This document shows positions 6,196 to 57,821 of a DNA stretch of 64,000 nucleotides, in pieces. Made by a program: the position numbers and the translations under genes. How positions within the stretch are numbered: position 1 is the first letter of the stretch; each line of letters starts with the position of its first letter. This DNA comes from Olsenella profusa F0195 (GTDB taxonomy: Bacteria > Actinomycetota > Coriobacteriia > Coriobacteriales > Atopobiaceae). The notes under the pieces were generated by a model that ran no database searches, was not told where the DNA came from, and worked only from the letters and a program-made list of their open reading frames with translations. The stretch spans positions 62,001 to 126,000 of the forward strand of contig NZ_AWEZ01000061.1 of assembly GCF_000468755.1 (NCBI RefSeq). The letters are read 5' to 3'.

Positions 6196-6204
6196 GTCTG
6201 CCGC

Positions 6205-7449: not shown

Positions 7450-7480
7450 GCTTCTCCTTCCCAGCCCACAGGGCTGCTTG

Positions 7481-24207: not shown

Positions 24208-24255
24208 CCTGGCCCCGTGAGCGCCCCTTACACATCGAGGAGAGAGGTCCTTGGC

Positions 24256-25287: not shown

Positions 25288-25336
25288 GCGACCGAGGGCA
25301 CGCAACGCCCGTGGGGCGCGGGTCTAGGGAGAGGTG

Positions 25337-41028: not shown

Positions 41029-41357
41029 GTCCTCGAAGTACATTGTTCGTTGCTCGGGACGACCTGCCTCATGCTACGTCCATGTCATTCATAAGGTGTT
41101 CACCTCACCCTCATTTGTATGCGCTCCTCTGAACAAAGACAAGACTGTCGGTGGATGAGCGCAAAATGTAATCGGTTCCAATCCTCTGAACGGTATCTTC
41201 GGAACGACAGACGTTGCAAGAGTCTTACACTCTCCCCAGGTATGCCTCGGCTCTCCCACAAATGAGTATGGTTGAGGGGATAAGGCGCACCAAGATGAGG
41301 TGGAATGCGGGATGAATGGATCCTGCCATCGCGCGTGGGACACAAGGAGGGTGGATC

Positions 41358-42428
41358 ATGTCCAGAAGGACCGGCAAGGTGACCATCGAGGACATCGCTA
41401 TCGCCGCGGGCGTATCTAAGACAACGGTTTCACGCTACATCAACGGCAAGTACAACCTGATGCGCGAGGACACCCGCAGACGCATTGAGACGGCCATCCG
41501 GCTCTCCGACTACCAGCCCTCCGCCATCGCACGAAGCCTCAAGACCCAACGCTCCCTCTTTGTCGGCGTCGTCGTGGCCGACATCACCAGCCCCTTCAGT
41601 TCGATGCTCATCTCCGGCATCGGCAACTACCTCGATGCCCACGGCTACATCCCCGTGTTCGTCAACTCGAGCGACTCCCCTGAGAAGGAGGCCAACTACA
41701 TCCGCACCCTGCTCACGCACCAGGTGGACGGCCTTATCGTGAACACGACCTCCCACGATAACCCCTACCTCATCCAGCTCGCCAACTCGGGACTGCCGGT
41801 CGTCCTGCTCGACCGGCGTATCGACAACTTCAACTTCGACCTCGTGACCGGCAACTACCACGCCCCCATGGAGGAGCTGGTACACCACCTGCACGACCAG
41901 GGATTTGACAGGGCTGTGCTCTTCACCGAGGACTACACCAACAACAGCGTCCGCAAGGACCGGCTCGACGGGTTCTGCTCTGCAGACAGGGCCTGCTTCG
42001 GGCGCGCCAACCCCATGGACGACGTGATAACGCTCAGAATCGGTGACGCTCGACACGTGCGTGACGAGGTGCGACGCGTGGTCGAGGAGACCCCTGAAGG
42101 CCAGGTCACCGGCCTTGTCAGCAGTAACTCCGTCACGCTCGTCAACCTCGTCTACGCCACCTCCACGCTGGGACTCTCCATCCCCAAGCAGGTGGGCATC
42201 TGCGGCCCCGACGACTGGGACTGGTCGCGCAGCATGGCCTGGGACTGGTCCGAGATCATCGGCATGGGCATCACCACCTACAAGGTCCACCCATACCGCA
42301 TGGGTGTCGAGGCCTCGGAACTCCTCATGAAGCGCATCGGCGACCCCGGTGGCGCCAGGAGGACCATCGAGGTGCCCTGCGAGCTCACCGTGAGGAGGTC
42401 AACGCTCTTGGACGGTGGGCGCACATAG
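41358..42428 (+). CDS. LacI-family transcriptional regulator of uronate locus 2
   Basis: A 356-residue LacI/GalR regulator with the helix-turn-helix TIEDIAIAAGVSKTTVSRYI, hinge YQPSAIARSLKTQRS and effector domain LFVGVVVADITSPF. ATG 41358 stands behind AAGGAGGGTGG. Paralogue of the regulator at 16121-17209, with the same recognition-helix residues (SKTTVSRYINGK), so the two should bind similar operators. It heads a plus-strand group with KDG kinase and the aldolase-VOC pseudogene and faces uxuA and its partner from the other side. Probable control of locus 2 and perhaps of the divergent permease. Confidence 0.9.
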   Translation: MSRRTGKVTIEDIAIAAGVSKTTVSRYINGKYNLMREDTRRRIETAIRLSDYQPSAIARSLKTQRSLFVGVVVADITSPFSSMLISGIGNYLDAHGYIPVFVNSSDSPEKEANYIRTLLTHQVDGLIVNTTSHDNPYLIQLANSGLPVVLLDRRIDNFNFDLVTGNYHAPMEELVHHLHDQGFDRAVLFTEDYTNNSVRKDRLDGFCSADRACFGRANPMDDVITLRIGDARHVRDEVRRVVEETPEGQVTGLVSSNSVTLVNLVYATSTLGLSIPKQVGICGPDDWDWSRSMAWDWSEIIGMGITTYKVHPYRMGVEASELLMKRIGDPGGARRTIEVPCELTVRRSTLLDGGRT

Positions 42429-42469
42429 CATTCGAACGTATGGCAGCGCAACGAGGCGGTAGGAGTCAC

Positions 42470-43426
42470 ATGCAGGAACAAAAGGGGATTCTCTTGGTGG
42501 GCGAGCCCATGGGGCTCTACATGTCACAGCAGGAGGGCGGGCTCGACCGGGCCCGCACCTTCGCCCTGGCCGTTGCCGGGGCAGAGCTGAACGTTGCCAT
42601 CGGCGTGAGCCGCCTGGGACACCGGGTGGGCTACCTCACCAAACTCGGTGACGACTTCCATGGCAGGCTCATCGTCAGGCTCATGAACCAGTGTGGCATC
42701 TCCACCGAGTTTACGACCCGCACCAGCGAGCGGCCGACGGGCATCATGTTCAAGAGCCTCACGCCTAACGGCGATCCGGAAATCTACTACCTGCGCCGGG
42801 GGTCAGCCGCCTCGACCCTCTCTCCCGCCGACGTGGCCGACCTCGACATGTCCGTCTACGGCATCCTGCACCTCACGGGCATCATGCCCGCGCTCTCCGA
42901 GTCGACGCGCGCGGCCACGAGGCTCCTGGTGCGGCGCGCACGCGAGGCGGGCCTCACGATCTCCTTCGACCCCAACCTCCGTCCCCAGCTCTGGCCCGAC
43001 CGCCAGACGATGGCCGCGTTCATGAACGAGATGGCCTCCCAGGTTGACCTCTTCCTCCCCGGCATCGCCGAGACGCGTGAGCTCTTGGGTGACGAGGAGC
43101 TCGCGCCCGAGGAGGCGGCCCGACGCTACCGTGAGCTGGGAACGCGCACGGTCATCGTGAAGTGCGGCTCTCGCGGTGCCTACTTTGACACGGACGGCGC
43201 GCGGGGATGGGGAGGCACCTTCCCCGTCGAGCACACCGTCGACACGGTGGGTGCCGGGGACGGCTTTGCGGCAGGCGTACTCACCGCCCTTCTGGAGGGG
43301 CTGGACATCCGCGCCGCCGTCACACGTGGCAACGCCATTGGCAGCCTCCAGGTACAGGCGCGCGGGGACAACGAGGGCATGCCCGACCGCGAGGGGCTTG
43401 CTGCTTATCTCTCCCGCAACCACTAG
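42470..43426 (+). CDS. 2-keto-3-deoxygluconate kinase (locus 2)
   Basis: A 318-residue PfkB-family sugar kinase. It shows an AGAELNVAIGVSRLG start region, SFDPNLRPQLW, the VIVKCGSRGAY strand and the canonical VGAGDGFAAGV with catalytic Asp near residue 263. The neighbours (KDPG aldolase, uxuA) make KDG the likely substrate. It is not a close duplicate of the kinase at 24256-25287, which has a degenerate GAGD motif, so the two were probably acquired separately. Start at the ATG 42470 after TAGGAG. Confidence 0.87.
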   Translation: MQEQKGILLVGEPMGLYMSQQEGGLDRARTFALAVAGAELNVAIGVSRLGHRVGYLTKLGDDFHGRLIVRLMNQCGISTEFTTRTSERPTGIMFKSLTPNGDPEIYYLRRGSAASTLSPADVADLDMSVYGILHLTGIMPALSESTRAATRLLVRRAREAGLTISFDPNLRPQLWPDRQTMAAFMNEMASQVDLFLPGIAETRELLGDEELAPEEAARRYRELGTRTVIVKCGSRGAYFDTDGARGWGGTFPVEHTVDTVGAGDGFAAGVLTALLEGLDIRAAVTRGNAIGSLQVQARGDNEGMPDREGLAAYLSRNH

Positions 43427-43477
43427 CCCACCATGACCCACTCTCCCGCGACGAGCCATCGATTGGAAGGAGCGGAC

Positions 43478-44437
43478 ATGTTCGAGAGCCTCCTGCGCGA
43501 CGTACACGCCATCGGCACGTCCCCGTCATCGCACTCGGCGCGGCCCAGGACGCCGCGCCGCTCGGCCAGGCCCTGGTGGAGGGGGCATCCCCACGGCCGA
43601 GGTGACCTTCCGCACCGCCGCGAGCGAGGCCTCCATACGCGAGATGGCCTCCAAGGTGCCCGGTATCCTCGTCGGGGCCGGCACCGTCACTTCGGTCGAG
43701 GTAGCCCGGCGGGCAGTGGACGCCGGCGCCCGCTACATCGTCACGCCCGGGTATGACCCGCGGTCGTCGAGTGATGCATCGACCACGAGGTTCCCATCCT
43801 CCCCGGCACCGCCACCCCCGGCGAGATCAAGGACGCCCAGAACCATGGACTCGCGGCCGTGAAGTTTTTCCCGGCCGAGGTGAACGGCGGTGTCCCCGCG
43901 CTCAAGGCCCTTGCCGGACCCTATGGGTCCATGCGCTTCGTGCCCACAGGCGGCATCGGGCCGCCCAACCTCACCAGCTACCTCTCCCAGCCCAACGTCC
44001 TTGCCTGCGGCGGCTCGTGGCTGGCCCCGAAGGATCTCGTCGCCCAGGGACGCTTCGATGAGATCCGTGAGATCTGCCGTCGGTCGAGCTATGCGATGCA
44101 TGGCTTCGAGCTTGCACATGTGGGCATCAACTGCGACGATGCGGCGGAGGCCAAGGAGGTCGCCACCTCCTTCGCGACCCTGTTCGGCTTGCCCGTCTAT
44201 GACAAGGGAGGAGGCTGCTTCGCCAGCGACATGGTGGACGTCGTGAAGGGGCGGCTCCTGGGCGAGCGGGGACACATCGGCGTGAGCTGCGTGGATGTTG
44301 ACCGTGCCAAAGCCTGGTTCGAGCGGCGGGGGTACCGCTTCGTGGAGAAGGGCGTCAACCGCGACGAGCGTGGCTACACCTCCGTGTTCCTCGAGGGCGA
44401 GGTGGGCGGCTTCGCCGTGCGGCTGCGCCGGAGGTAG
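43478..44437 (+). pseudogene. KDPG aldolase-VOC fusion, disrupted by three frameshifts and a stop
   Basis: Homology to KDPG aldolase runs through all three frames: FESLLRDVHAIG, then VPVIALGAAQDAAPL, then EVTFRTAASEASI and GAGTVTSVEVARRAVDAGA. It continues CIDHEVPILPGTATPGEIKD, the Schiff-base VKFFPAEVNGG and FVPTGGIG. Each frame change is explained by one missing base (near 43515, in a G-run near 43577, and near 43760). A TGA at about 43772 replaces the Trp codon expected in VVEWCI. From about residue 215 a VOC domain (HVGINCDDAAEA to VGGFAVRLRR) follows, a fusion seen in some Firmicutes-type aldolases. Either a recent pseudogene or clustered sequencing errors; intact aldolases exist at 25.3 and 50.5 kb. 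Confidence 0.8.
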
Positions 44438-44497
44438 CGGCGCCCCCTCGTGTCGGTCCATCCTGGTGGCGCCTACGAGACTCGAGGCGCCCGGCCT

Positions 44498-45577
44498 CTA
44501 CGCACCCCGCTTCTCCAGGGCCTCCCAGAGGCCATTGAGGTAGGCGATGCCGAGCGCGCGGTCGTAGAGGCCGTAGCCCGCACGACCCGTCTCACCCCAG
44601 ATCATGCGCCCATGATCGGGACGGATGAACCCGTCGAAGCCGTTGTCGTGCAGGGCGGCCATGATCTTGAACATGTCGAGGGAGCCATCCCGGGAGAGGT
44701 GGCCAGCCTCGTAGAAGTCCCTGCTCTTCCCAGGCTCGAGGTACTTGATGTTGCGCGCATGGACGAAGTGGATGCGGCCACGCCGGGTGAACTCGGCAAG
44801 GATCGCGTACACGTCGTTGGAGGGATCCTCCGCGATGGAGCCCGTACAGAGCGTGATGCCGTTCGCCGGGGAGTCCACGGCACGGCAGAGCCAGTCGAGA
44901 TCCTCGCGACCCTTGATGATACGTGGCAGGCCAAAGAGACTGTAGGGTGGGTCATCGGGATGGATGGCCATCCTCACGCCACACTCCTCGCAGGTGGGGA
45001 TGATACTCTCAAGGAAGTGCACCAGGTTCGCGCGCAGCTGTTCCTCCCCCACGCCCCGGTAGATCTCGAAGAGGTGCTTTATCTGCGCAAGACGCTCGGG
45101 CTCCCAGCCGGGGAGGACGTAGTTCCCCGTGCCCTGGGCATAGCGCTCGAGCAGCACGTTGGGGTCATCGGGAATCTCCCGCCCCCTGAAGGCCAGGGTG
45201 TTCGAACCATCTGGCAGCTGGAAGCTGAGGTCGCTCTTCACCCAGTCGAAGACCGGCATGAAGTTGTAACAGATGACCTGGATGCCCTGGTGGGCGAGGT
45301 TGCGGATGGTCTGGCAGTAGTTGGCTATGTACCTGTCGCGCGTGGAAAGGCCGGCCTTGATGTCATCGTGCACGTTGACCGACTCGATCACCTTGAGCGT
45401 GAGGCCGACGCCCTCGATCTCGCGCCTGAGGGCGGCGATGCGCTCCTCGGGCCACACCTCGCCCACGGGGATGTCCATGAGGCAGCCCACCACGCCATCG
45501 ACGCCCGGAATCTCCCGTATCTGCCGGAGGGTGATCCTCTCCTCGCTCGAGCCGTACCACCTGAAGGTCATTTCCAT
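44498..45577 (-). CDS. uxuA: Mannonate dehydratase
   Basis: Dehydrates D-mannonate to KDG. The 359-residue TIM-barrel protein starts MTFRWYGSSEERITLRQIRE and has ICYNFMPVFDW, RMAIHPDDPP, LCTGSIAEDPSND, HFVHARNIK and FIRPDHGRMIWGE, the metal-binding and catalytic segments of UxuA. Length agrees with the shorter Gram-positive type. Start at the ATG 45577, 17 bases after the Ldh-family gene stop. It forms a two-gene operon with that reductase. Confidence 0.95.
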   Translation of the reverse strand: MEMTFRWYGSSEERITLRQIREIPGVDGVVGCLMDIPVGEVWPEERIAALRREIEGVGLTLKVIESVNVHDDIKAGLSTRDRYIANYCQTIRNLAHQGIQVICYNFMPVFDWVKSDLSFQLPDGSNTLAFRGREIPDDPNVLLERYAQGTGNYVLPGWEPERLAQIKHLFEIYRGVGEEQLRANLVHFLESIIPTCEECGVRMAIHPDDPPYSLFGLPRIIKGREDLDWLCRAVDSPANGITLCTGSIAEDPSNDVYAILAEFTRRGRIHFVHARNIKYLEPGKSRDFYEAGHLSRDGSLDMFKIMAALHDNGFDGFIRPDHGRMIWGETGRAGYGLYDRALGIAYLNGLWEALEKRGA

Positions 45578-45594
45578 GCCGCTTGCTCCCCTGC

Positions 45595-46647
45595 CTACAC
45601 CGCGGAGAGATCCTCGATGGAACCCTCCGTCCCCTCTGCCAGGCCGCACACCTGCTGCCAGATCATCTCGTCCACCACGACGCCCTCCCTGAGGTTGCGC
45701 TCACGGGTCTGGAGCGTACGCTCCCCGGGATAGGTGACCGGGTAGTCGGGGTCGAGGGGCGTGGCGGCATCCGCGCGGGCGATGCGCTCGTTGACCATCC
45801 CCTGGACTTCCTCCTCGCTGCCGAAGAGATAGGGATCCAGGGCCACGAAGACCTGGCAGGCACCCGTGCACGAGCCCCTTCCCTCGTCATCCATCTGCGA
45901 GCCCGACTTGCCGTTTGCCAGCGCTGCCGCCACGAGATCGAGCGCCAGGGCCATGCCCGAACCCTTCCAGTAGCCTGTGGGGAGGATGCGGCGCGTCTCC
46001 TCGATGGTCACGGGGTCGGACGTGAGGTTTCCCTGGGCGTCGAAGCCTCCCGGGTAGGGCAGCTGGACTCCCTGAAGGCGGCAGGAGCCGATCTTGCCCC
46101 ACGAGTACTGGCTCAGGGCCATGTCGAGCACGACGGGCCCTTCCGACCGGGGGACCGCGATGCAAATGGGGTTGTTGCCCACACTTGGCTCCGCGGAGCC
46201 CCACAGGGGCATGGAGCTCTCCGTGTTGGTCCAGCAGAGGGCCATCATCCCCGCCTCCGCCGCCTGCCAGGCATAGGTGCCACCTCGCATCCAGTGGGTC
46301 GTGTTCCTGAGGGCGATGCAACCGATACCATGCTCCCTTGCGAGGGCGATGGCACGGCCCATGGCGAAGCGAGCGTTAGTGATGCCCGGGCCCAGGTGCC
46401 CATCATAGTTCTCGACCGCACCGTGCGCGCCCACCAGCTCGGGGGTGGCGGAGGGATCGACCCACCCCTTGCGCACGTAGTCGATGAAGCGCGGAACCCG
46501 GTTGAGGCCATGCGACTCGATGCCGTCCAGGGACGTCGATGCGTGCGTCCGGGCGCACTCGGAGGCTACCTCATCGCTGAGGCCCGCCCTGAGGAGGGCT
46601 CGTCTGATGGTCGCCTCCACCTCATCATAGGAAACGCGGATGCTCAT
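45595..46647 (-). CDS. Ldh/YjmC/YiaK-family NAD(P)H-dependent reductase
   Basis: A 350-residue member of the malate/lactate/ureidoglycolate dehydrogenase family that is unrelated to Rossmann-fold Ldh. It has SLDGIESHGLNRVPRFIDYV, the conserved HWMRGGTYAWQAAEAGM, GNNPICIAVPRSEGPVVLD and LPTGYWKGSGMALALDLV. Bacillus subtilis YjmC, encoded beside uxuA in the exu operon, belongs here. Since no uxuB is seen near uxuA, this enzyme is a candidate for reducing D-fructuronate to D-mannonate (inference). Start at the ATG 46647 directly after AGGAGATGAGAGG. Confidence 0.85.
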   Translation of the reverse strand: MSIRVSYDEVEATIRRALLRAGLSDEVASECARTHASTSLDGIESHGLNRVPRFIDYVRKGWVDPSATPELVGAHGAVENYDGHLGPGITNARFAMGRAIALAREHGIGCIALRNTTHWMRGGTYAWQAAEAGMMALCWTNTESSMPLWGSAEPSVGNNPICIAVPRSEGPVVLDMALSQYSWGKIGSCRLQGVQLPYPGGFDAQGNLTSDPVTIEETRRILPTGYWKGSGMALALDLVAAALANGKSGSQMDDEGRGSCTGACQVFVALDPYLFGSEEEVQGMVNERIARADAATPLDPDYPVTYPGERTLQTRERNLREGVVVDEMIWQQVCGLAEGTEGSIEDLSAV

Positions 46648-47706: not shown

Positions 47707-49350
47707 CTACCGATTGCAGAGCGCACCGTCCTTCGCGGGGCCAACGAGCCTCACATAGCGATGCAGGAGTCCACGGGGAACCTCGTGGACAACGGGCTCC
47801 CACTCGACGCGGCGGCGCTCAAGATCTTCGTCAGAGACCTCGACGTTAATCGAGTTCGCACCCAGGTCGATGTCGACGATATCGCCGTCCTTCACCAGGG
47901 CGATATTGCCACCCTCTGCGGCCTCGGGACAGAGATACCCAACGGAAAGGCCGCCCGAGGCACCGGAGAAGCGCCCGTCGGTGATGACGGCAGAGCCTGG
48001 GATGCCCTTCATGATCTCCGTAACGCGGTGGAGCTCCTTCATGCCGGGTCCACCCACTGGACCCTCGTAGCGGATGATGACCGCCGTGCCAGCGGCAATC
48101 CTCTTCGCGTTGTATGCGGCAAAGCACTCCTCCTCGCTGTCGAAGCACATGGCGGGTCCGTGGAAGACGTGCTGGCCTGCCGGAACGGCGCTCGTTTTGA
48201 CGAGCGTGCCCTCGGTCGCAATGTTGCCATAGAGCACCTGAATGCCATTCACCACGGACGCAGGGTCATCCTGGGTACGGATGACCGAGCGGTCGATGTC
48301 TCTGACCCCAGCAAGGTTCTCGCCGAGGGTCTTGCCATTGATGGTCATCACGGAGGTGTCGAGAGATGCCTCGATGGTCTTCATGACCGCAGGAACCCCG
48401 CCTGCCTTGTACAGGCTCACACAGGAGATGTCGCCGTTCGGGACAATGTCGCAGACGACCGGGGTCTTGCTCGTGGCCTCCGCAACCTGCGCCCAAGTGA
48501 CCGAGCAGCCAAGCTCGTCCGCAATGGCGGGGAGGTGCAACAGGGCGTTGAGCGATCCGCCGATGGAGGCAAGAAGGGCCACGGCGTTGTCGAAGGCTGC
48601 CTGCGTCATGATGTCGGACGCCTTGACGCCCTTGCGCACCATCTCGACGACTGCCACGCCCGTGCGGCGGGCGATGAAACGGCGCTGCGCCGTGGGAGAC
48701 GGCTGCAGGGCGCCCCCTGGCACCATCATGCCAAGGCCCTCCGCCAGGCAGCACATGGTATTCGCGGTTCCCAGGAACGGGCAGATGCCCGGACCCGTGT
48801 AGTACTTGAGCGTGCCCTCGATGACCTCTTGCTCGGTGGCCTCCCCCCTCAGGAAGCGGGCGCGCAGCTCCTTCGACTGGCTCGGCCTGATCTCGTCATA
48901 GCAGGGGCCTGCCGAGACAATCGCACCAGGAAGGTCAATACGGCCGGCGGCCATGAGCATGCCTGGAACGATCTTGTCGCAGCTCGCCATATAGATAACG
49001 CCATCGAAGCAGTTGGTGCCCCTCACCATGGCCTCGACAGAATCGGCAACGATCTCGCGGTGGGGAAGGCTGTAGTGCATGCCCTGGTGCCCCTGTGCAA
49101 TGCCATCACAGATGGCGATGGTGTTGAATTCGATCGGCTCGCCACCTGCCTCGAGGATGCCCTTCTTTACCTCCTCGGCGAGCTTGCGCAGGGGTTCGTG
49201 TCCCGGACAGATCTCGTCCCAGCTGTTCGCGATTGCGATGAGTGGCCTGTCCGTGTTGTTCAGGGAGTCAACCGAAACGCCTGCCGAGGCGAAGTGTGCC
49301 TTGGTGATTGCCCTCTGGAAGGGCTCGAGCCTGTCGATCGCACGCTCCAT
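47707..49350 (-). CDS. IlvD/Edd-family Fe-S dehydratase
   Basis: A 547-residue dehydratase with the three cluster cysteines Cys48 (DEICPGH), Cys124 (ASCDKIVPGM) and Cys200 (TANTMC), the Mg-binding Asp82 (CDGIAQGHQGM) and Lys126. The C-terminal VITDGRFSGASGGLSVGY is also conserved. Length is nearer dihydroxy-acid dehydratase than 6-phosphogluconate dehydratase (about 600). But it is last in an operon with a PTS, a KDPG aldolase and a sugar-alcohol-type dehydrogenase, and no isoleucine/valine genes are near. A sugar-acid dehydratase feeding the aldolase is the better functional guess; IlvD itself cannot be excluded. Confidence 0.85.
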   Translation of the reverse strand: MERAIDRLEPFQRAITKAHFASAGVSVDSLNNTDRPLIAIANSWDEICPGHEPLRKLAEEVKKGILEAGGEPIEFNTIAICDGIAQGHQGMHYSLPHREIVADSVEAMVRGTNCFDGVIYMASCDKIVPGMLMAAGRIDLPGAIVSAGPCYDEIRPSQSKELRARFLRGEATEQEVIEGTLKYYTGPGICPFLGTANTMCCLAEGLGMMVPGGALQPSPTAQRRFIARRTGVAVVEMVRKGVKASDIMTQAAFDNAVALLASIGGSLNALLHLPAIADELGCSVTWAQVAEATSKTPVVCDIVPNGDISCVSLYKAGGVPAVMKTIEASLDTSVMTINGKTLGENLAGVRDIDRSVIRTQDDPASVVNGIQVLYGNIATEGTLVKTSAVPAGQHVFHGPAMCFDSEEECFAAYNAKRIAAGTAVIIRYEGPVGGPGMKELHRVTEIMKGIPGSAVITDGRFSGASGGLSVGYLCPEAAEGGNIALVKDGDIVDIDLGANSINVEVSDEDLERRRVEWEPVVHEVPRGLLHRYVRLVGPAKDGALCNR

Positions 49351-49392
49351 GGTAAACGCCTTTCTCTTCTTAAAGCGAAATGATGAACGTCC

Positions 49393-50487
49393 TCATGCCA
49401 TTTCAAGGACTGCCTCGTGCAAGCGTTGGCGATCGGCGGGATCATCAGAGTCGTAGTGGCGCGAGTTGACTATGTACTCCTCAATGGTGTTGAGGTTCCC
49501 CTCGGTCGGCTCGATGCCGACCTCGCCAAGCGTGAGGGGGAGGTCCATCTTGCGCATGAACTCGCGAAGCTCCTCCTCCTTGTCCCTGAGGCCATTGAAG
49601 TACAGCTGACAGAACAGCCCGATGGCAACGATCTCGCCATGGATGGCATTGGCGGCCTCGTGCGTAAAGTGCGTGCGAACACCGTCATATATGACATGCG
49701 CAAGCTCCGACTGACGGAAGCTCTTTGTGGCGTTCGCGATGACGCCCGTGACGATGACGTTCAGGAAGGCGACGTCGGTAAGCTTCTTCGTGACCTTCCC
49801 GGCACGGTTGTCCTCGATGGCCTGGATGCCCTCCTGAGCCAGGACGTCGTAGGCATAGTCCGCCATGTTGTACGCAGTGTAGACGTCAATCGGCGTGTCC
49901 TCGAGGAGCATCTGAGGCCGCCCGTTGAGCATCTCGACCTTCTTTGCCATTGCGTCAAGGATGCCGGCGGCATTGTAGCGGATGGGGCATGCGGCAATGA
50001 CGTCCATGTCCATGTAGACGCCATCGATCTCGTGGTCGAAGCGCCAGCTCTTGAGCTTGCCGCCCTCGGCGGTGTACATGACGCTCATGCAGGTGAAGGG
50101 GGCGCAGCAGGAGGCGCTCGTGGGTACGTTGATGGCCCCGAGGCCCGCAAGTTCACCGACGGCCTTTGAGAGGTCCGTGATCTTGCCGCCACCGACACCA
50201 ACGATCTCGTCGCAGCCCTCGGCCCCTGCCTTGTCCGCAAGCGCCTGCGCACCTTCGAAGCTGCACCAGCCGGTGTAGATCTCGAGCTGATGGTCGACAC
50301 CAGCCGCCTCCATGCTGGGAACAAGCTCGTCCTTAACGGCATCCCATGAACGGGGACCCGCCACGATGAGCATCTTCCTGCCAAAGCGCGCGAGCTCCTC
50401 GCCAAGTTGGGACAGCAGTCCCTGCTCGCAGCGAACTCGTCCGGCACCAAATTTGATTGCGCTATCCAACTTGGGTTGATGAGCCAT
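49393..50487 (-). CDS. Iron-containing alcohol dehydrogenase family (GldA-like)
   Basis: A 364-residue protein of the glycerol dehydrogenase/dehydroquinate-synthase-like fold. It has the NAD-binding VGVGGGKITDLSKAVGEL, INVPTSASCCAPFT, and the metal ligands probably in CPIRYNAAGILDAMAK (Asp), THEAANAIHGEIVAIGL (His) and a further His. Members oxidise glycerol, glycerol 1-phosphate or sugar acids. In this operon it may interconvert a keto-sugar acid and its reduced form before dehydration. ATG 50487 behind GGGAGGGAGA. The substrate is not predictable from sequence alone. Confidence 0.83.
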   Translation of the reverse strand: MAHQPKLDSAIKFGAGRVRCEQGLLSQLGEELARFGRKMLIVAGPRSWDAVKDELVPSMEAAGVDHQLEIYTGWCSFEGAQALADKAGAEGCDEIVGVGGGKITDLSKAVGELAGLGAINVPTSASCCAPFTCMSVMYTAEGGKLKSWRFDHEIDGVYMDMDVIAACPIRYNAAGILDAMAKKVEMLNGRPQMLLEDTPIDVYTAYNMADYAYDVLAQEGIQAIEDNRAGKVTKKLTDVAFLNVIVTGVIANATKSFRQSELAHVIYDGVRTHFTHEAANAIHGEIVAIGLFCQLYFNGLRDKEEELREFMRKMDLPLTLGEVGIEPTEGNLNTIEEYIVNSRHYDSDDPADRQRLHEAVLEMA

Positions 50488-50525
50488 TCTCCCTCCCAAG
50501 ACCCCAGAATCATTCAGCAGTGGCA

Positions 50526-51185
50526 TTAGGCACAGTGGGTGCAGACGGCTGCCGACACCTCGGAGGCAATGGTCTCTACCTGGGAGAAGTCGCCATCGGC
50601 AAAGAGCTCTGGCTTGACCATCCAGGTACCGCCCACGGCGATGATCGAGGGGTTCGCCAGGTAGTCCGTGAGGTTCTCGGAGTTGACGCCACCGGTCGGC
50701 ATGAAGCGATGGCCCACAAACACGCTGGCCAGAGCGTTGATGGCCGGAATCCCGCCATAGATGTTCGCGGGGAAGAACTTGGTCACGTGCACGTCCCTGT
50801 TGATGAGGGCCATCAACTCGCTCGGCGTGACAGCCGCAGGGATCACATTGACCTCGTTCGCAATGCACCACTCGACGGTCTCGATGTCATAGCCGGGCCC
50901 CACGATGAACCGTGCACCAGCATCGACCGCGCGCTTCGCCTGCTCGACGTTGATGACGGTTCCTGCGCCAACGAGGATATCCGGGCACTTCTCGGACACC
51001 TTGCGGATGCAGTCGGCCGCAGCAGCGGTGCGAAACGTCACCTCGGCAGCCGGCAGACCGCCCTTGACGAGGGCGTTGGCCAGCGGCACGGCATCCTCAG
51101 CCCTCTCAAGCACGACAACGGGAATGACGCCCGTCTTCGAGAGAGCCTCGTAGAATCCGTTCTTGTTCATATACTCGGTCAGCAT
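50526..51185 (-). CDS. KDPG aldolase (PTS locus)
   Basis: A 219-residue class I aldolase with Glu48 (AEVTFRT), Schiff-base Lys136 (VTKFFPAN), VGAGTVINVEQAK and MPTGGVNSENL, intact throughout. It aligns residue for residue with the aldolase at 25337-25999 around both catalytic sites. Here it should cleave KDPG or a stereoisomer such as 2-keto-3-deoxy-6-phosphogalactonate, made by the IlvD-like dehydratase. ATG 51185 follows GGGAGGAACT. Confidence 0.92.
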   Translation of the reverse strand: MLTEYMNKNGFYEALSKTGVIPVVVLERAEDAVPLANALVKGGLPAAEVTFRTAAAADCIRKVSEKCPDILVGAGTVINVEQAKRAVDAGARFIVGPGYDIETVEWCIANEVNVIPAAVTPSELMALINRDVHVTKFFPANIYGGIPAINALASVFVGHRFMPTGGVNSENLTDYLANPSIIAVGGTWMVKPELFADGDFSQVETIASEVSAAVCTHCA

Positions 51186-51211
51186 AGTTCCTCCCAGATG
51201 ATTTCGTTGGG

Positions 51212-52165
51212 CTATTGGGCCAGTGCCATGAGAAGAGAGCTTCGATCGATCACCCTTTGGGTGCCGACCTCGCTCGAGGTGTCGATGACAATCTCCCCGG
51301 TGCCGTCTTCTTTGCCAGCGCACACGAGGTAGTCCCCGTACTGCTTGCGCTTCTCGGTACCCAGTCGCCTAACGGCGACCCGGTCCTCCCACTCAGGGGG
51401 GCAACGCAGATTGGTGAGGCAGATCGGATCTCCATCCGAGCCAAGGGAGTCCACGTAGATGCGCCTCGGCCTGCGTCTTCCCAGGCGCCTACGCAACATC
51501 TCGAGCCCGCGCCCAGACCGGCACCCCTCATCCACGAAAGCGAAGGCGACCTTCTTGCCGGAAGCCTCGTCTCGCACCTGCCTGGCCAGGTCAAAGAGAA
51601 CTGCCAGGCTCGATGAGTTCCTCACCCTGTTGTTCCATCTTGGAAGGCCCTCCCTAAAGCCTGTGACGAAAGCGAGCAGGGGCACGCAGAGGGCAACGAA
51701 GAGCAGACCTCCCAGACTCAGGATGCCAGCGGAGAAGACCAGCGGAAGTGCGAAACGATAGATGAGAAGGGCGCCCGCGAGGGCAGTCACGCCCAGCAAC
51801 AGCGAGGACACCAAGACGTCTTGGGGGCGGAAGCCCGTTTGGAATGCCTTGGAACCTCGATCCGGAAGCGTAAGCCCAGGCGTGTCGTAGTACGTGATAA
51901 AGAGCACGTCGGCATGATCAACATCACCGGCGTAGAGATTGACGAAACGCTTCGAGCCAGCACCCCTGACCACGTGACTGTCCTCGTCAAGTGAGGGTCC
52001 GTATCCGCACAGCTCAAACTGACGGGCCGCCGCAGCCAGGAAGCGCTTCTTCTGGCCTCGCGTGCAACGCCTTCCGAGGATCACGCCGTAGCGAAGGATC
52101 AGGTCGCCCACGCGCGTGTCGCGATCCTCGGGCTCAACGTATGCCTGCCTCTCGGGAATTCCCAA
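51212..52165 (-). CDS. Membrane protein with M28 peptidase-like features
   Basis: A 317-residue protein I cannot name. Residues 60-95 read like the first metal-site region of M28 aminopeptidases (VNLYAGDVDHADVLFITYYDTPG, where the family has a HYD motif), but the His is replaced by Tyr. Two adjacent hydrophobic segments lie at about 122-142 and 146-166, followed by a soluble C-terminal half with VAFAFVDEGCRSGRGLEML (family: GLGS-type) and IYVDSLGSDGD. So it looks like a membrane-anchored, catalytically degenerate M28 relative. It sits inside the PTS operon between aldolase and HAD gene. Its role in sugar use is unknown. Confidence 0.55.
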   Translation of the reverse strand: MGIPERQAYVEPEDRDTRVGDLILRYGVILGRRCTRGQKKRFLAAAARQFELCGYGPSLDEDSHVVRGAGSKRFVNLYAGDVDHADVLFITYYDTPGLTLPDRGSKAFQTGFRPQDVLVSSLLLGVTALAGALLIYRFALPLVFSAGILSLGGLLFVALCVPLLAFVTGFREGLPRWNNRVRNSSSLAVLFDLARQVRDEASGKKVAFAFVDEGCRSGRGLEMLRRRLGRRRPRRIYVDSLGSDGDPICLTNLRCPPEWEDRVAVRRLGTEKRKQYGDYLVCAGKEDGTGEIVIDTSSEVGTQRVIDRSSLLMALAQ

Positions 52166-52168
52166 GAT

Positions 52169-52831
52169 TCACACCCCACTTTCCATATCCAACAGACGAA
52201 GCGCAATCCGTAGGTCACTGGCGCACGCGATGCCATCCGGTATCTCAAACGCGGGTGAGCTCGTGTCCGGCACAAGCCAGACGTCGATGCCAGCCGCAAA
52301 CGCTGCGTGTCGCCCCGTCAGCGAGTCCTCGAAGGCGACTGCCGTCGAGGGGCTGCACTCAAACTTCTCAAGCGCCTTCTGGTAGGGCTCGGGGTTCGGC
52401 TTCCTCTGCCCTACGTCCTCCGAGGCCACGATATGATCAACGAGCCCCAGGAAACCGAGCCTCTCCGCAATCGCCACGACGCGACGGCGCAACGACGAGG
52501 AGACGACACACACGTGGCGGTTGGCATCATGAACGACACGAAGGGCATGGAGGGCGAACGGCTTCGGCTTGATTCCGCCCGCCGCTATCGCGCCGTACAC
52601 ATACTCCTCACGCAACGCATACAGCCTTGGGTAGAGGTCCGGGTCGTGAAAGCGCCTCTCTACCGCAGCGCTCGTATAGTCGATGCTCCTTCCGACCCAG
52701 GACTCAAGCTCGGAGTCGGGCATGTCGAGCCCTGCCCTGTCAAAGGCCGTGCGCCAGCCTTCCCGATAGACGCGCTCGGTGTCAACGAGAAGCCCGTCGA
52801 AGTCGAAGATGTAAAGCCCCTTCTTCGCCAC
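52169..52831 (-). CDS. HAD-superfamily hydrolase, beta-phosphoglucomutase-like
   Basis: A 220-residue HAD protein with the nucleophile Asp10 and Asp12 in YIFDFDGLLVDTER, a helical cap (residues about 18-85), the Ser of VVSSSLRRR and the GLVDHIVASEDVGQRKPNPEPY and AFEDSLTG motifs III/IV. Subfamily I cap type, so either a small-sugar phosphatase or a phosphoglucomutase. In the PTS operon it may remove phosphate from the incoming sugar phosphate or act on a side product. Three bases separate it from the next gene. Confidence 0.88.
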   Translation of the reverse strand: MAKKGLYIFDFDGLLVDTERVYREGWRTAFDRAGLDMPDSELESWVGRSIDYTSAAVERRFHDPDLYPRLYALREEYVYGAIAAGGIKPKPFALHALRVVHDANRHVCVVSSSLRRRVVAIAERLGFLGLVDHIVASEDVGQRKPNPEPYQKALEKFECSPSTAVAFEDSLTGRHAAFAAGIDVWLVPDTSSPAFEIPDGIACASDLRIALRLLDMESGV

Positions 52832-52885
52832 GCCAACCTCTCCCCTTAGAGGGGGTCACGCCACATTCGACGCGGCCCCACCTGA

Positions 52886-53320
52886 CTAGTAGTCGCCGTC
52901 GTTCTCGTCGTCTACGACCTGGACGGGTTCGCCAATGCCCCTATGACCCGCTTCCATGGCCACGCTGACAAGCCCTTCGAGCGTGGAACCCTCTCTCATG
53001 GAGACTGCCTCTGCAAGCATCCCCAGGTTCATGCCAGATACGATGCGAATCCGCACGCCCTCCCCCTCAAGCGCATGGGCCACCTTCTGCGTCACGTTGA
53101 ACGGAGACGCACCAAAGAGGTCGACAAGCGCAAGAACCCCATCGCCATCGTTGAGGTCACGCGTCTTCTGGGCGATCTGGGACTCGAAGACCTCGTAGTC
53201 CTCCCCCATCACGAGCGAGACGTGGTCGAGCTGCTCGACCTCACCCATGACCATGCCCAAGGTATCGAGCATGCCCTCGGCCATCCTCCCGTGGCTGACG
53301 AGCAGAATCCCTACCATCAC
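52886..53320 (-). CDS. PTS mannose-family IIA component
   Basis: Phosphocarrier of a Man-type PTS, phosphorylated by HPr at His10 (GILLVSHGRMAEGM). The 144-residue protein has LVDLFGASPFN and the SGMNLGMLAEA segment of EIIA-Man. The C-terminus is an unusual acidic tail (VVDDENDGDY), echoed in the IIC protein (DEDDDY). Its start overlaps the IIB stop by four bases (ATGA). Confidence 0.93.
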   Translation of the reverse strand: MMVGILLVSHGRMAEGMLDTLGMVMGEVEQLDHVSLVMGEDYEVFESQIAQKTRDLNDGDGVLALVDLFGASPFNVTQKVAHALEGEGVRIRIVSGMNLGMLAEAVSMREGSTLEGLVSVAMEAGHRGIGEPVQVVDDENDGDY

Positions 53321-53823
53321 TCGCTAACCCCTTCCATGATCTTGGCCGCCTCTTTGAGGGTCATCTTCGGAAGTGAGGGCGTGGCTTGGAAGTAGATGTC
53401 AATGCCATAGTCGCGCTCGAACTCGCAGAGGAGGTCATACTGAGCACGGTTTATGTGAACGGCCTTGATGATTTCGGTGAGGCCGGGACGCGCAGGCAGG
53501 CCTCCTAGGTTCAGCGTCCTGATGGGGACGCCACCCTTGATGATGCCGGCCATGACCTCGATGGACTTGGTGAGGAGAATCACCTTGTAGTCATCATACT
53601 GACGATCGTTCCAGTAGCGAACCGCTCCGTCCTCCTTGAGGACACGGCACTTGAGACCCGTACGCGAGCCGGAGCCAAGGATGACGCTCTTGATGAAGTC
53701 ATCCTTTGCCGAGGTGTTGTCTGCGACGAAGATTGCCGTCGCCCCTGCGGACTTCGAGAGGGTCGTCATAACCTGACCGTGAATGAGGCGCGAATCAACG
53801 CGAGCAAGCACAACCTGTCCCAT
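53317..53823 (-). CDS. PTS mannose-family IIB component
   Basis: Receives phosphate from IIA on His15 (RVDSRLIHGQVMT) and passes it to the transported sugar. 168 residues, complete, with the NLGGLPARPG segment typical of IIB-Man/Lev/Sor. Separate from IIA as a single-domain protein. Preceded by the IID gene with an 18-base gap. Confidence 0.94.
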   Translation of the reverse strand: MGQVVLARVDSRLIHGQVMTTLSKSAGATAIFVADNTSAKDDFIKSVILGSGSRTGLKCRVLKEDGAVRYWNDRQYDDYKVILLTKSIEVMAGIIKGGVPIRTLNLGGLPARPGLTEIIKAVHINRAQYDLLCEFERDYGIDIYFQATPSLPKMTLKEAAKIMEGVSE

Positions 53824-53841
53824 GAGAGTTCTCTCCTAGCC

Positions 53842-54738
53842 TTAAAGGATACCGATAGCAGCAAGGACACCGAGGATCACTGTCAGACCGAGAAGTGCCT
53901 TGGTAACGTTCAGGCCCTTCTTGACGAAGTAGAGGTACACGCCGCCAACGGTCACGAGGGGCAGCAGGCCCGGAAGGATGCTATCGAGGATGTCCTGGAT
54001 GACAAAGTCCTTGCCGGAGATGTTGAACGCGAGCGGAGAAGCCACCTTGACATAGCTGGCAGCAAGAATGCCCATCATGAACAGGCCAAGGATGGAGAGG
54101 CCATCGATGATGCCCTGCATCTTGGAACCCACAATCTCGTTTGCAGCAGAACGACCCAGAGAGAAGCCCAGCTGAGCAAAGTAGTAGCCAATGACGAGCT
54201 GATACAGGGAGAAGGCGATGAAGGGGAACAGTGCACCGACCGCAGAGCCAGCCTGAGCCCAAGGCAGGGCGATGGCTATGAAGATGTACTGGACGGTACC
54301 GGAATCGATTGAGTCGCCAATGCCGGCCAAGGCACCCATGAGACCGGCCTTGGTATTGTAGATCAGGTCGTCGTCGACGGTGACCGGCAGACCGGATGTG
54401 AGCTCTTTGGCACGCGCAGTCTCAAGCGCAGCGGTGATGCCGGTGATGGTGCCGCCGCCCCAAGCGATGGCGGTGTTGAAGAAGAGAAGGTGACGCTGAT
54501 ACGCCGCCGCCAGGTCCTCCTTGCGCTTGTAGAGCTTCTGGAGGATGGGCATGAGGGCCCAGGTAAGTGCAGGTGCGAGGTACTTATCGAAGCAGTGGGG
54601 AATCTCATCGGCGAAGTAGAAGCGCAGCCACGCAAGGGCGACGTCCTTCTTAGTGATCTCTTCAGGCTGGTAGTCGGTGTAGTCGGTGGGAGCATTGTCA
54701 ACTTCAGTGGCCTGGGAGGCCGAAATTGCATCAGTCAT
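53842..54738 (-). CDS. PTS mannose-family IID component
   Basis: Membrane subunit working with IIC. The 298-residue protein begins its conserved part at about 28 (ITKKDVALAWLRFYFADEIP, where most have W...NYER), then RHLLFFNTAIAWGGGTITGITAALE and GLMGALAGIGDSIDSGT, the IID signature. It ends in hydrophobic helices. Together IIC and IID form the channel for an unidentified sugar or sugar acid. Confidence 0.93.
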   Translation of the reverse strand: MTDAISASQATEVDNAPTDYTDYQPEEITKKDVALAWLRFYFADEIPHCFDKYLAPALTWALMPILQKLYKRKEDLAAAYQRHLLFFNTAIAWGGGTITGITAALETARAKELTSGLPVTVDDDLIYNTKAGLMGALAGIGDSIDSGTVQYIFIAIALPWAQAGSAVGALFPFIAFSLYQLVIGYYFAQLGFSLGRSAANEIVGSKMQGIIDGLSILGLFMMGILAASYVKVASPLAFNISGKDFVIQDILDSILPGLLPLVTVGGVYLYFVKKGLNVTKALLGLTVILGVLAAIGIL

Positions 54739-54776
54739 GTGTTGCCACCTTTCTGGAAGGGGTCTTGTCTCGGGAA

Positions 54777-55601
54777 TCAGTAGTCGTCATCCTCGTCGGC
54801 GGCGCAGGCGGTGCCGGGGACGTTCGACCCGATCATCTCGACGGTCTCGTTCTTCGCCAGGACAAAGATGAAGGCAATGATCGAGCCGACGATGGCATAG
54901 GTGATCATGGTGATGTCGAGGCTCTTCAAAATCATCGACAGGAAGAAGGCGAGCAGGAAGAAGATGACGTAGTTCTTCTTGCCGATTGCATAGACGGTGA
55001 CGGCGATGCCGATTGCCGCAAGTCCGCCGCCAATGGTCTGGAGCACATGGAAGATCACGGTGCCAGAGGCGGAGGAGACGATGTCGGAGATCACGGGAAC
55101 GCCGAAGTAGAGCGCGACGAACATGAACGGGATGTAGATCACGAAAGCGATGATGATGGGCATGCCGATGATGGCGAAGCCGAGCTTCTTGCTGTCGGCC
55201 TCCTTGGCGGCGTCGTCGGCCATGTGGCTCATGACAAGCGTGTTCACAAAGAAGCGGAGCTGGTAAAGATAGGAGCCGAGAAGGCCAACGGGCACGGCGA
55301 CGGCAATCGCAGACTCGGCGCTCTGGCCGGAAAGCAGGCTGACCGGCACGGCGATGGCCGCGGCGATGGCAGGTTCGGAGGGCATCTGGCCGCCAGGCGA
55401 GAAGACGCCCATGTAGATCAGCTGGATTGCTGCAGTGACAACCATTGCGTCAGCAACACGACCAAAGACGATGCCGACGACAAGCCCCGTCATCATTGGG
55501 GTGAAGCGCAGCGTGGTCGTGGCACCACCTAAAAATGCGCGAGACATGACCGCTGCAATCCAAATCGAGATTATCAGCGCCTGAGTAACGGTAACTTGCA
55601 T
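54777..55601 (-). CDS. PTS mannose-family IIC component
   Basis: Membrane subunit of 274 residues with about eight hydrophobic segments. It contains the IIC-Man features GLVVGIVFGRVADAMVVTAAIQLIYMG and GGQMPSEPAIAAAIAVP. The C-terminus is acidic (AADEDDDY) like that of IIA. Start at the ATG 55601 directly behind GAGGGAGGAAGG; the in-frame extension upstream is leader DNA. First structural gene after rpiR. Confidence 0.93.
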   Translation of the reverse strand: MQVTVTQALIISIWIAAVMSRAFLGGATTTLRFTPMMTGLVVGIVFGRVADAMVVTAAIQLIYMGVFSPGGQMPSEPAIAAAIAVPVSLLSGQSAESAIAVAVPVGLLGSYLYQLRFFVNTLVMSHMADDAAKEADSKKLGFAIIGMPIIIAFVIYIPFMFVALYFGVPVISDIVSSASGTVIFHVLQTIGGGLAAIGIAVTVYAIGKKNYVIFFLLAFFLSMILKSLDITMITYAIVGSIIAFIFVLAKNETVEMIGSNVPGTACAADEDDDY

Positions 55602-55874: not shown

Positions 55875-56708
55875 TCAGAGCCTCGTCTCCTTGATGACCG
55901 AACGAATCCGAGCAAAGCGGCTTGGATCCTTGTCGATATGTTCGACGTACAGGGCAAAGAGCGTGTCGACGATGACCATCTGGGCGACGGTGGAGGTGAT
56001 GGCCTCAGGCCTGATCTTCGTCTCTTCGGCAACGGAGCAAATCGTAATGTCACTCTGCTCAGCAAGGGGCGAGGTGGGATTCGAGGTGATGCTCACGATT
56101 GGCACCTCACCCTCCTTGAGGATCTTGACAACCCGCATCACGTCCTTGTTGCGACCCGAGTGAGAGACTACGAGAGCGCAGTCGTCAGGAGAGAGGTTTG
56201 CCGCGATCTCAAGCTGCATGTGCATGTCGGCCTGGAGGATCATTCGCAAGGAAGTACGCTGAAAGCGATGGAATGCGCTGTACAGAATCGGGAACGACCC
56301 ACCCGTTCCGAATAGGCCACAGAGCTTGGAACGACCGAGAAGCTGGACGGCAGCGTCGAGGCTCTCCTCCCTGAGAGCCGACATGGTCTCGATGAGGGAG
56401 TTGGCACTATGCTCGAAGACTGACTGTGCGGTGTCGAGCGTTGAGCCCCTCTCGAAGTCATCGAAGAAAATGACGGGAAGCCGCGTAGACGCGAGCTGGA
56501 CGCGCATCTCGCGTAGATTCTCATAGCCAAGAAATTTGACGAAACGGGTAATGGCAGATTTGGAGACCCCAATCGTCTCTGCCAACTCGGCACTCGAGAG
56601 ATGGCAAGCCTCCTGTGAGTGGTCGAGCAGATAGGTGGCAATCAGTCGATCCGTCTTGCTCATGTCGGCCATGCGGCTCCTGGCTCGGCTAGAAAACTCG
56701 ATTCCCAT
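55875..56708 (-). CDS. RpiR/MurR-family transcriptional regulator
   Basis: A 277-residue regulator with the N-terminal RpiR helix-turn-helix (LSSAELAETIGVSKSAITRFVKFLGY, near 40-65) and a C-terminal SIS domain (LFGTGGSFPILYSAF; VVSHSGRNKDVMRVV; VSITSNPTSPLAEQSD) that should bind a sugar phosphate. Start at the ATG 56708 after GGGAAGGGAGC. Located just upstream of the PTS operon in the same direction, it is the likely specific regulator and its ligand would be the PTS product. Confidence 0.9.
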   Translation of the reverse strand: MGIEFSSRARSRMADMSKTDRLIATYLLDHSQEACHLSSAELAETIGVSKSAITRFVKFLGYENLREMRVQLASTRLPVIFFDDFERGSTLDTAQSVFEHSANSLIETMSALREESLDAAVQLLGRSKLCGLFGTGGSFPILYSAFHRFQRTSLRMILQADMHMQLEIAANLSPDDCALVVSHSGRNKDVMRVVKILKEGEVPIVSITSNPTSPLAEQSDITICSVAEETKIRPEAITSTVAQMVIVDTLFALYVEHIDKDPSRFARIRSVIKETRL

Positions 56709-56846: not shown

Positions 56847-57821
56847 TCAACCCCCACCAGAGACTGCGAGGGTCTTCTTTTCTAATAGGCGCCTTCGATC
56901 TCTTATGGGGCTCGTGATGTGTGCCACCTCGGCGTGGGCGCCATAGTTCCAGCTCGTGCGCTCGCACTCGGGACACCAGTGCCCGCCCTCCAGCACCAGG
57001 TGCGGGCTCGCTCCTGAGGCCCCGCTCACCGCACAGGGACTGGTGCATCTGGTAGGTGCTCACGCGGGGCAGGCCTCGCCGCCACCGACGTTGTAGACGT
57101 GGCCCCAGAACGCGCCTGGCAGGCTCCCCGCGGCATCGTATGAGGCCAGGTGCGCCATCATCGTACACGAGTCACGATCCGAGATGTACTCGAGCACGTT
57201 GTCGAGGCAGTTGTGAAGCTGGATGGCGTCGCGGATCCTGGCCATGGCGGGACCGGTGATGCCCGTCTGGCGCAGGCTGACCCAGCGCCCGAGGCCCCAC
57301 TCGATCACGTATCGCTCCGCGGCGACCTTCGAGACGGCATAGTAGTCGAACATGCTCGGCTCGATGGGGTCGCCAACGCGCCCCCAGTGGATGGGCGGCA
57401 TGCGGTCGCCCGTCTCGACCACCATGCCGATGTAGACAAGGGTGGTGGCGTCCGCCTGCCCGAGCTCCCTCACGGCCTCCACGAGATTACGTGTGCCACC
57501 AAAGTTGACTCGCATGGCGGTCGTGGGATGGTAGTCCGCAGCCGGCGAGACGAACGCCGCCATGTGCAGCACGAGATCGCAGCCTTCGAGGCAGGCCACG
57601 AGCGCTCCGCGGTCGTCGAGGTCTCCCCAGACGATGCTGAGGCCGGCCCGCCCTAGGAACGGTAACATCGACGGCGACATCGCCGCGCGGTTCCTCTCGA
57701 AGTCCCGCACGAGGAGCGTGAGATCGTACTCCCTTCCCACGCTGGGCAGCATCGCCTTGAGCGAGGCCATGCCCATACCGCCCGAGACGTCCGTCATGAG
57801 GACCCTTGGGATGCGGCTCAC
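56847..57821 (-). pseudogene. NAD-dependent epimerase-family gene, frameshifted and internally deleted
   Basis: From the start at 57821 an SDR-type reductase reads well for about 250 residues: VNFGGTRNLVEAVRE, PPIHWGRVGDPIEPSMFDYYAVSKVAAERY and GHVYNVGGGEAC, then a stop at 57060. In the next frame CRVSTYQMHQSLCG continues the homology. Further on a third piece (PHLVLEGGHWCPECERTSWNY, 56900-57010) matches the Cys-containing C-terminus of the same large family. About 150 residues in between are missing. The N-terminal dinucleotide loop is also altered (DVSGGMGM). Probably nonfunctional. Confidence 0.65.

Follow-up and report, generated by a model that had tools for sequence, protein, structure and literature searches.

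In its classical form, the Entner-Doudoroff pathway combines a gluconate kinase with the dehydratase Edd and the aldolase Eda, which acts on 2-keto-3-deoxy-6-phosphogluconate (KDPG). The kgu-type 2-ketogluconate route of Pseudomonas follows a related course, in which a kinase is used, the keto-aldonate phosphate is converted into 6-phosphogluconate, and a true Edd then carries out the dehydration. Gluconate is presented as an abundant gut nutrient contested by commensals and Klebsiella, and in the GAD pathway described for Blautia and Enterocloster a non-Edd dehydratase precedes Eda (PMC11424487). In Enterococcus faecalis, the occurrence of Entner-Doudoroff activity without edd is introduced as a long-standing enigma, for which a predicted shunt is offered (PMC7701990). 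Here, we analyzed a 64,000-nucleotide stretch of the genome of Olsenella profusa F0195 (contig NZ_AWEZ01000061.1, positions 62,001 to 126,000; hereafter the window), which carries an operon encoding a mannose-family phosphotransferase system (PTS), an IlvD-type dehydratase, a KDPG aldolase and an iron-type alcohol dehydrogenase (FeADH). On balance, we favor the reading in which this operon specifies a PTS-fed, Edd-less variant of the Entner-Doudoroff pathway for a sugar acid.

The Proposed Route

In this route, the mannose-family PTS would import an aldonate or a keto-aldonate (candidate substrates are D-gluconate, 2-keto- or 5-ketogluconate, D-mannonate, or another C2/C3 epimer) and would phosphorylate it, most simply at C6. 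The FeADH would interconvert keto and hydroxy forms to give the configuration accepted by the dehydratase, the IlvD-lineage dehydratase would remove water to generate KDPG or a C4/C5 epimer of it, and Eda would split KDPG into pyruvate and glyceraldehyde 3-phosphate. A regulator of the RpiR family would sense a sugar phosphate, a HAD-family phosphatase may remove a dead-end phosphate, and an orphan gene that we call X may help the transporter. We infer all of these reactions from the genes and their relatives, and likewise what the substrate is and that the dehydratase receives it phosphorylated. The parts are of known kinds; their combination, and a probable change of substrate in the IlvD-lineage enzyme, are likely to be new.

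The Dehydratase and Its Clade

Judged by sequence, the dehydratase (47707..49350, minus strand) is a member of a distinct clade, neither biosynthetic IlvD nor Edd, as the initial annotation had anticipated. It carries both domains of the IlvD/Edd superfamily, ILVD_EDD_N (PF00920, E 5.8e-106) and the C-terminal domain PF24877 (2.8e-59), and is one of three such proteins in the genome, together with a 73% identical paralogue on contig C29 and a copy on contig C17. Against the IlvD model TIGR00110, whose cut-off is 618.15 bits, the window copy scores 524.5 and the C29 paralogue 517.9, versus 765.6 for the C17 copy, an ilvD that adjoins ilvB, ilvN and ilvC; no match to ilvB, ilvN or ilvC was found in the window. 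Against the Edd model TIGR01196 (cut-off 708.25), the window copy and the C29 paralogue reach 267.4 and 268.4 bits. No Edd was detected in this genome at E 1e-180, and a single genome out of 149 sampled from the phylum has one. The presence of a separate ilvD beside ilvB, ilvN and ilvC, together with the absence of a detectable Edd at this threshold, argues for the PTS-fed, Edd-less reading.

In the class Coriobacteriia, a search at E 1e-150 detected the clade in 34 of 396 genomes. The clade set that we aligned comprises 33 sequences, i.e., 35 matches minus G186, for which no locus was returned, and the fragment L065/G274; the N-terminal ends of L015 and L050 were cut back prior to alignment. 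It was compared with four Edd sequences and with an IlvD set of eight, which includes L014, possibly itself a sugar-acid dehydratase. In a 28-row tree, 14 rows make up the clade as a single group (support 100/99). Its junction with Edd (88/91) is unsafe because of long branches, among them an Edd stem of 3.33. Cysteine occupies the second and third cluster-ligand positions (C124 and C190) in 33/33 clade sequences; at the first Fe-S ligand position all 33 have Gly, as do the eight IlvD-set sequences, and a clade-specific Cys lies two residues earlier. For reference, three Cys ligands are described in [2Fe-2S] members of the IlvD/Edd family (PMC9314677). Residue 48 of the dehydratase (near position 49208 of the window) is Cys in the whole clade set and in none of the eight IlvD-set sequences, the four Edd or YjhG.

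The five alignments listed by a search of the PDB with YjhG are all to dihydroxy-acid dehydratases (DHAD), with no solved sugar-acid dehydratase among them, and no dehydratase of at least 60% identity was found in 624 plasmid records. A pattern scan of GTDB, an insensitive method, gave one clade member (L013) and two relatives at 43%, as against the many more found by the other search.

Linkage to PTS and Aldolase Genes

Neighborhoods were read at 23 clade loci from 22 of the 34 genomes; two of these loci come from the window's own genome, and genome G351 is represented by L013. At 22 of the 23, a PTS and genes of the KDPG-aldolase family lie within about 10 kb of the dehydratase. The PTS is of the mannose family at seven loci (the window, L013, L046, L047, L049, L050 and L065, the last five having it on the adjoining stretches L087-L091), and of the EIIC-GAT type at 15 others (L011 and L051-L064), where it is homologous to that of L011; the IIC matches in L059, L061 and L062 reach only 36-40%, and the L061 IIC is also assigned to EIIC-GAT by Pfam. 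The remaining locus, L048, lies on a contig of 9,783 bases that stops near the gene, with nothing else visible. As a control, we read stretches of 18-19 kb around five biosynthetic ilvD genes, from the window's genome and four congeners (one of the same species): matches to the PTS queries were found in 0/5, and ilvB, ilvN and ilvC in 5/5. This difference supports the proposed PTS-fed, Edd-less route, and the linkage agrees with a sugar-acid phosphate pathway.

L011, on contig C29 of the same genome, is where the 73% paralogue is encoded, with an EIIC-GAT-type PTS, an aldolase and a dehydrogenase of the PGDH type. Its aldolase passes the Pfam threshold for PF01081 and scores 125.8 with TIGR01182, below the cut-off of 156.05; a Cof-type HAD gene was also noticed there by eye. 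Because the clade is linked to two types of PTS, its dehydratase seems to follow phosphorylating uptake, and phosphorylated substrates, as such. In L065, the matches to the clade dehydratase fall in two pieces on one strand (6004-7618), and the frame looks interrupted.

Subunits IIA, IIB, IIC and IID all score above their Pfam cut-offs, and an enzyme I gene is present on contig C45 (601 bits, cut-off 341.7), which is again consistent with the proposed reading. On the same contig, besides this full gene, a 954-amino-acid open frame (260785-262167) contains two enzyme I-like stretches that remain below the cut-off. No NCBIfam specificity model scored above its cut-off for any of the four subunits.

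Redox and Dehydratase Genes of the Sister Clusters

A D-2-hydroxyacid dehydrogenase of the PGDH type is encoded at all 15 EIIC-GAT-type loci. Three of them (L051, L052 and L064) also have a homologue of the window FeADH (57-58%) and genes of the galactarate/altronate-dehydratase type (UxaAB), and homologues of FeADH, UxaAB and PGDH recur at the mannose-type loci L046, L047, L049, L050 and L065. In total, FeADH is found at 10 of the 23 clade loci. The UxaAB assignment is sustained by domains, namely PF20629 and PF04295 in the large subunit of L046 and a SAF domain in the small subunit of L052. Moreover, genome G002, which has no clade dehydratase, pairs an Eda with an FeADH (65% and 66%) and has alongside them UxaAB, a gene of the PGDH type and a PTS; for its IIC, of the EIIC-GAT type, the nearest models are those for ascorbate (371.9 bits against a cut-off of 380).

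A 6-phosphogluconate dehydrogenase appears in three of these settings. In L046, the gene adjoining the clade dehydratase is a phosphogluconate dehydrogenase of the NAD type (378.5 bits, above the cut-off); in G002, such a gene lies beside the Eda-FeADH pair (643 bits, cut-off 426.7); and a PTS operon found on an Enterococcus faecium plasmid has one, again of the NAD type (380.7 bits, cut-off 297.2). These occurrences speak for the PTS-fed, Edd-less reading and make 6-phosphogluconate at most a plausible shared node. D-gluconate, D-mannonate, D-altronate and D-allonate have a common configuration at C4 and C5, so that their dehydration gives the same 2-keto-3-deoxygluconate (KDG) or its phosphate. 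Because of this shared stereochemistry, the presence of varied dehydratases beside dehydrogenases is chemically sensible. The initial annotation had expected a route different from plain gluconate use on account of the HAD and dehydrogenase genes. A route wider than plain gluconate use fits the sister clusters, which add PGDH-type enzymes, galactarate/altronate-type or UxuA dehydratases and, in the three cases just cited, 6-phosphogluconate dehydrogenase.

More speculatively, an IlvD-lineage enzyme might have taken over the dehydration of 6-phosphoaldonates separately from Edd, as a module of PTS operons of both the mannose family and the EIIC-GAT type. Dehydrogenases (FeADH and those of the PGDH type) and dehydratases of the IlvD, UxuA or galactarate/altronate type would then channel gluconate, its C2/C3 epimers and keto-aldonates alike to KDPG. 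We regard this wider scenario as tentative, the odds being rather against it.

The Substrate Pocket and the Weighing of the Readings

In Edd, contacts to the carboxyl and hydroxyls of 6-phosphogluconate are assigned to H47 in domain 1 and to K190 and R194 in the lid of domain 2; these assignments come from an AlphaFold model into which the substrate was docked (Evans et al. 2024, PMC10847513). The same source gives the lid region of the biosynthetic enzymes as 6-7 residues longer than that of Edd, and the E. coli and soybean DHAD as inactive on 6-phosphogluconate (PMC10847513). We found that the lid stretch measures 47 amino acids in 33/33 clade sequences and in 4/4 Edd, and 53-55 in 8/8 of the IlvD set. 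The column of Arg194 holds Arg throughout the clade and the Edd sequences and in one of the eight IlvD-set sequences, which is L014. This Edd-length lid with its Arg194 equivalent supports the route that we propose.

Several observations weigh against it. In the pocket, the Lys190 column is Ser in 33/33 clade sequences, with Lys at the next residue, and Edd domain 1, which bears the substrate histidine, is absent, leaving a gap at the position of E. coli Edd H47 in all 33. As described, the Edd lid contacts reach carboxyl and hydroxyl groups and not the phosphate (PMC10847513), and YjhG, a dehydratase of the free acid D-xylonate, is equally short before the Arg194 column, at which it has Gly and not Arg. 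In 64 columns, the four Edd sequences share a residue that the IlvD set does not have; at these, the clade follows IlvD 24 times and Edd 8 times, and otherwise has a residue of its own (17) or varies (15). Taken with the lid alignment, these counts indicate an IlvD-like frame with a lid that is not IlvD-like. The pocket thus fits a sugar-acid substrate, and is compatible with either state of phosphorylation. Outside the pocket, a phosphogluconate dehydrogenase match is present at only one of the 23 clade loci (L046), the best one of the window's genome being on another contig and below the cut-off (279.4 versus 297.2). A KDG-kinase-like gene lies near the operon (42440-43426) and would allow a route through free acids. 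Finally, L098, in genome G174, has counterparts of RpiR (52%), IIC (79%), IID (77%), IIB (73%), IIA (57%), HAD (45%) and X (42%), with a PGDH-type gene and an aldolase. Over the 19.9 kb that we read there, no FeADH match was found, and G174, whose genome is 99% complete, yielded no protein of the IlvD/Edd family; it has a UxuA elsewhere. It is thus possible for the PTS, HAD and X to work without an IlvD-type dehydratase.

The kinase-like gene leads to the alternative that survives best. The HAD enzyme would strip the phosphate added by the PTS, the IlvD-type enzyme would produce KDG, the kinase would convert it into KDPG, and Eda would cleave the latter, much as in the GAD pathway reported for gut anaerobes (PMC11424487). 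This is an unlikely course in our view, although a second Eda homologue and a UxuA gene adjoin the operon along with the kinase-like gene, L013, L098 and E. faecium also have HAD homologues in their PTS clusters, and the free-acid enzyme YjhG has an equally short lid. Indeed, it would spend phosphoenolpyruvate and then ATP on one molecule, the dehydratase keeps company with a PTS at nearly every locus read, and the kinase gene lies on the opposite strand, outside the operon, and scores below every curated cut-off.

Two further alternatives are considerably weaker. L098 inspires one of them, in which the aldolase would cleave a PTS-made 2-keto-aldonate 6-phosphate directly into hydroxypyruvate and glyceraldehyde 3-phosphate, PGDH-type enzymes would reduce the hydroxypyruvate, and the dehydratase would serve a side substrate. 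The gene content of L098, in a genome devoid of IlvD/Edd-family proteins, fits such a course, and the PGDH-type enzymes have matches, below the cut-off, to models of glyoxylate/hydroxypyruvate reductase. We nevertheless find it improbable, because the window cluster has the dehydratase and no PGDH-type match, because the UxuA of G174 could supply KDPG from elsewhere in the genome, and because this Eda cleavage is deduced from chemistry. Just as improbable is a PTS importing a plain hexose or an amino sugar, with the downstream enzymes only loosely linked to it: the subunits do match NCBIfam models for mannose, fructose, sorbose, galactosamine and N-acetylgalactosamine, all below the cut-offs, but the same enzymes are repeatedly linked with two PTS types, and the operon genes include no amino-sugar deaminase or isomerase. 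That the dehydratase is a second biosynthetic DHAD can be dismissed, since, despite best family scores to IlvD models and the 24 IlvD-like columns, it remains below the IlvD cut-offs that the C17 copy beside ilvB, ilvN and ilvC exceeds, and its clade is linked to PTS genes.

Organization of the Operon and Strain Variability

The PTS-fed, Edd-less reading concerns ten genes, all on the minus strand. The MurR/RpiR-family regulator (55875..56708; PF01418 1.6e-14, SIS 6.8e-18) stands 273 bases upstream of IIC. It is followed by the PTS subunits, namely the mannose-family IIC (54777..55601; PF03609, E 1.7e-52) and IID (53842..54738; PF03613, 1.4e-78), the mannose/sorbose-family IIB (53317..53823; PF03830, 5e-35) and the mannose-family IIA (52886..53317, with an alternative GTG start at 53320; PF03610, 9.7e-24). 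Then come the HAD phosphatase or beta-phosphoglucomutase-like gene (52169..52831; HAD_2 1e-26), whose top NCBIfam match, TIGR02009, gives 79 bits against a cut-off of 153.35, gene X (51212..52165), between HAD and Eda, and the KDPG/KHG aldolase Eda (50526..51185; TIGR01182 227.1 bits, cut-off 156.05; PF01081 1e-60). A GldA/HcxA-like FeADH (49393..50487; PF00465 5.3e-24) precedes the dehydratase. From IIC on, intergenic gaps are of 3-54 bases and IIB and IIA overlap (the gap upstream of FeADH becomes 68 bases with a second possible start at 50457); given this spacing, IIC through dehydratase are likely to form one transcript. All genes named in the initial annotation are where it placed them, and Pfam gives a significant match for each; gene X had been overlooked.

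Gene X encodes an orphan protein of 317 amino acids with a hydrophobic middle. At E 0.001, neither NCBIfam nor Pfam gives a match for it, and AlphaFold2 modeling with two sequences had a mean pLDDT (predicted confidence) of 45.7, which is too low for a fold search. By eye, some resemblance to M28-type zinc peptidases was noticed. It is rare (detected in 3 of the 392 genomes searched in the class), with relatives at 57% in L013 and at 42% in L097/L098. For FeADH, alignment with E. coli GldA and HcxA showed that an Asp and two His positions, which we take to be metal ligands, are kept; the glycerol dehydrogenase model NF006941 gives 177.7 bits against a cut-off of 336. A promoter and terminator scan was uninformative (3 promoter-like and 7 terminator-like sites versus shuffle means of 2.8 and 6.4). 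The 4-kb blocks covering 48-56 kb of the window have a G+C content of 0.614 and 0.587, and the remaining 14 blocks range from 0.623 to 0.694.

After a gap of 1065 bases, two more minus-strand genes may extend the cluster, a 3-dehydro-L-gulonate 2-dehydrogenase-like gene (45595..46641; NF009750 376.7 bits, cut-off 316) and the mannonate dehydratase gene uxuA (44498..45574; TIGR00695 379.2 bits, cut-off 199.55). They belong to a stretch (41316-46641) that also carries, on the plus strand, a LacI-type regulator, the KDG-kinase-like gene and an Eda homologue, the latter with an extra C-terminal part that is glyoxalase-like by eye. Farther away (22714-25987), homologues of UxaA-type small and large subunits (39%) accompany another Eda homologue, 59% identical to that of the operon.

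The ten-gene order is found identically in L013, a metagenome-assembled genome labeled Atopobiaceae bacterium (a family of the class Coriobacteriia), with identities from 57% (X) to 95% (IIB), including 84% for IIC and 70% for an RpiR at the equivalent place. Such a recurrence indicates that the arrangement is not due to chance. The 3-dehydro-L-gulonate 2-dehydrogenase-like gene was not found in L013, nor was UxuA in L013 or its genome. In genome G002 (L110), from the same species, regions matching window positions 35320-36446 (99.6%) and 57040-57656 (90%) lie about 9.3 kb apart, versus about 20.6 kb in the window (36446-57040); within that interval of G002, the sole match to the window that was observed covers 88 bases and lies at its right end. 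The difference in spacing places the operon within a strain-variable stretch.

Comparison with Known Systems

With the classical Entner-Doudoroff pathway, the operon shares a KDPG aldolase at the end and a dehydratase of the same superfamily. It departs from it by a phosphorylation that we infer to be made by the PTS, by the lack of a detectable Edd, by an IlvD-size dehydratase without domain 1, and by the additional FeADH, HAD and X genes. The kgu-type route resembles the proposed one in reducing a keto-aldonate phosphate before dehydration, and differs in having no PTS and a true Edd. With the GAD pathway, which we compared by its description only, the likeness lies in the use, by gut anaerobes, of a dehydratase other than Edd ahead of Eda; that pathway is described with a gluconate transporter and a KDG kinase, and the operon has a PTS (PMC11424487).

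The closest PTS recovered from the plasmid collection is that of the E. faecium plasmid operon (L073/L079), with identities over aligned parts of 59% for IIC, 63% for IID, 43% for IIB, 31% for IIA, 28% for X, 28% for HAD and 25% for FeADH. This operon comprises gnd, a 2-hydroxyacid dehydrogenase, an FeADH-like gene, the mannose-family PTS, an X-like gene, UxuA (48% identical to the window UxuA) and HAD, with an RpiR nearby. No IlvD-type or Eda match was found in the stretch read, in which UxuA and phosphogluconate dehydrogenase are present. The X homologue is split into two hypothetical genes in L073 (2990-3856) and gives only piecewise matches in L074, which suggests decay. We considered whether L073 could be PTSclin, whose ptsD is given as 711045..711866, i.e., 822 bases (PMC11008740); as the L073 IID has 858 bases, the two were not equated.

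Among the paper titles and abstract openings found, none describes the present arrangement, a weak negative as subscription literature lay mostly outside the search. The gluconate-gene reference sequences named in these two studies cover kinase, gluconate dehydratase, transporters, KDG kinase and Eda (PMC7701990, PMC11424487), and a PTS-type route might escape searches built on them. An IlvD-type enzyme specific for phosphorylated acids, if the proposed reading is true, would be a further reason not to name such genes ilvD. In E. faecalis, the EF3134-EF3139 cluster likewise has a PTS beside a sugar-acid dehydratase and Eda; its dehydratase is annotated as a mannonate dehydratase, hence UxuA-type (PMC7701990; compared by its description). 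In the operon described here, that place would be held by an IlvD-lineage enzyme, and an independent origin of 6-phosphoaldonate dehydration, if true, would be one answer to the question of how Entner-Doudoroff activity arises in bacteria without edd.

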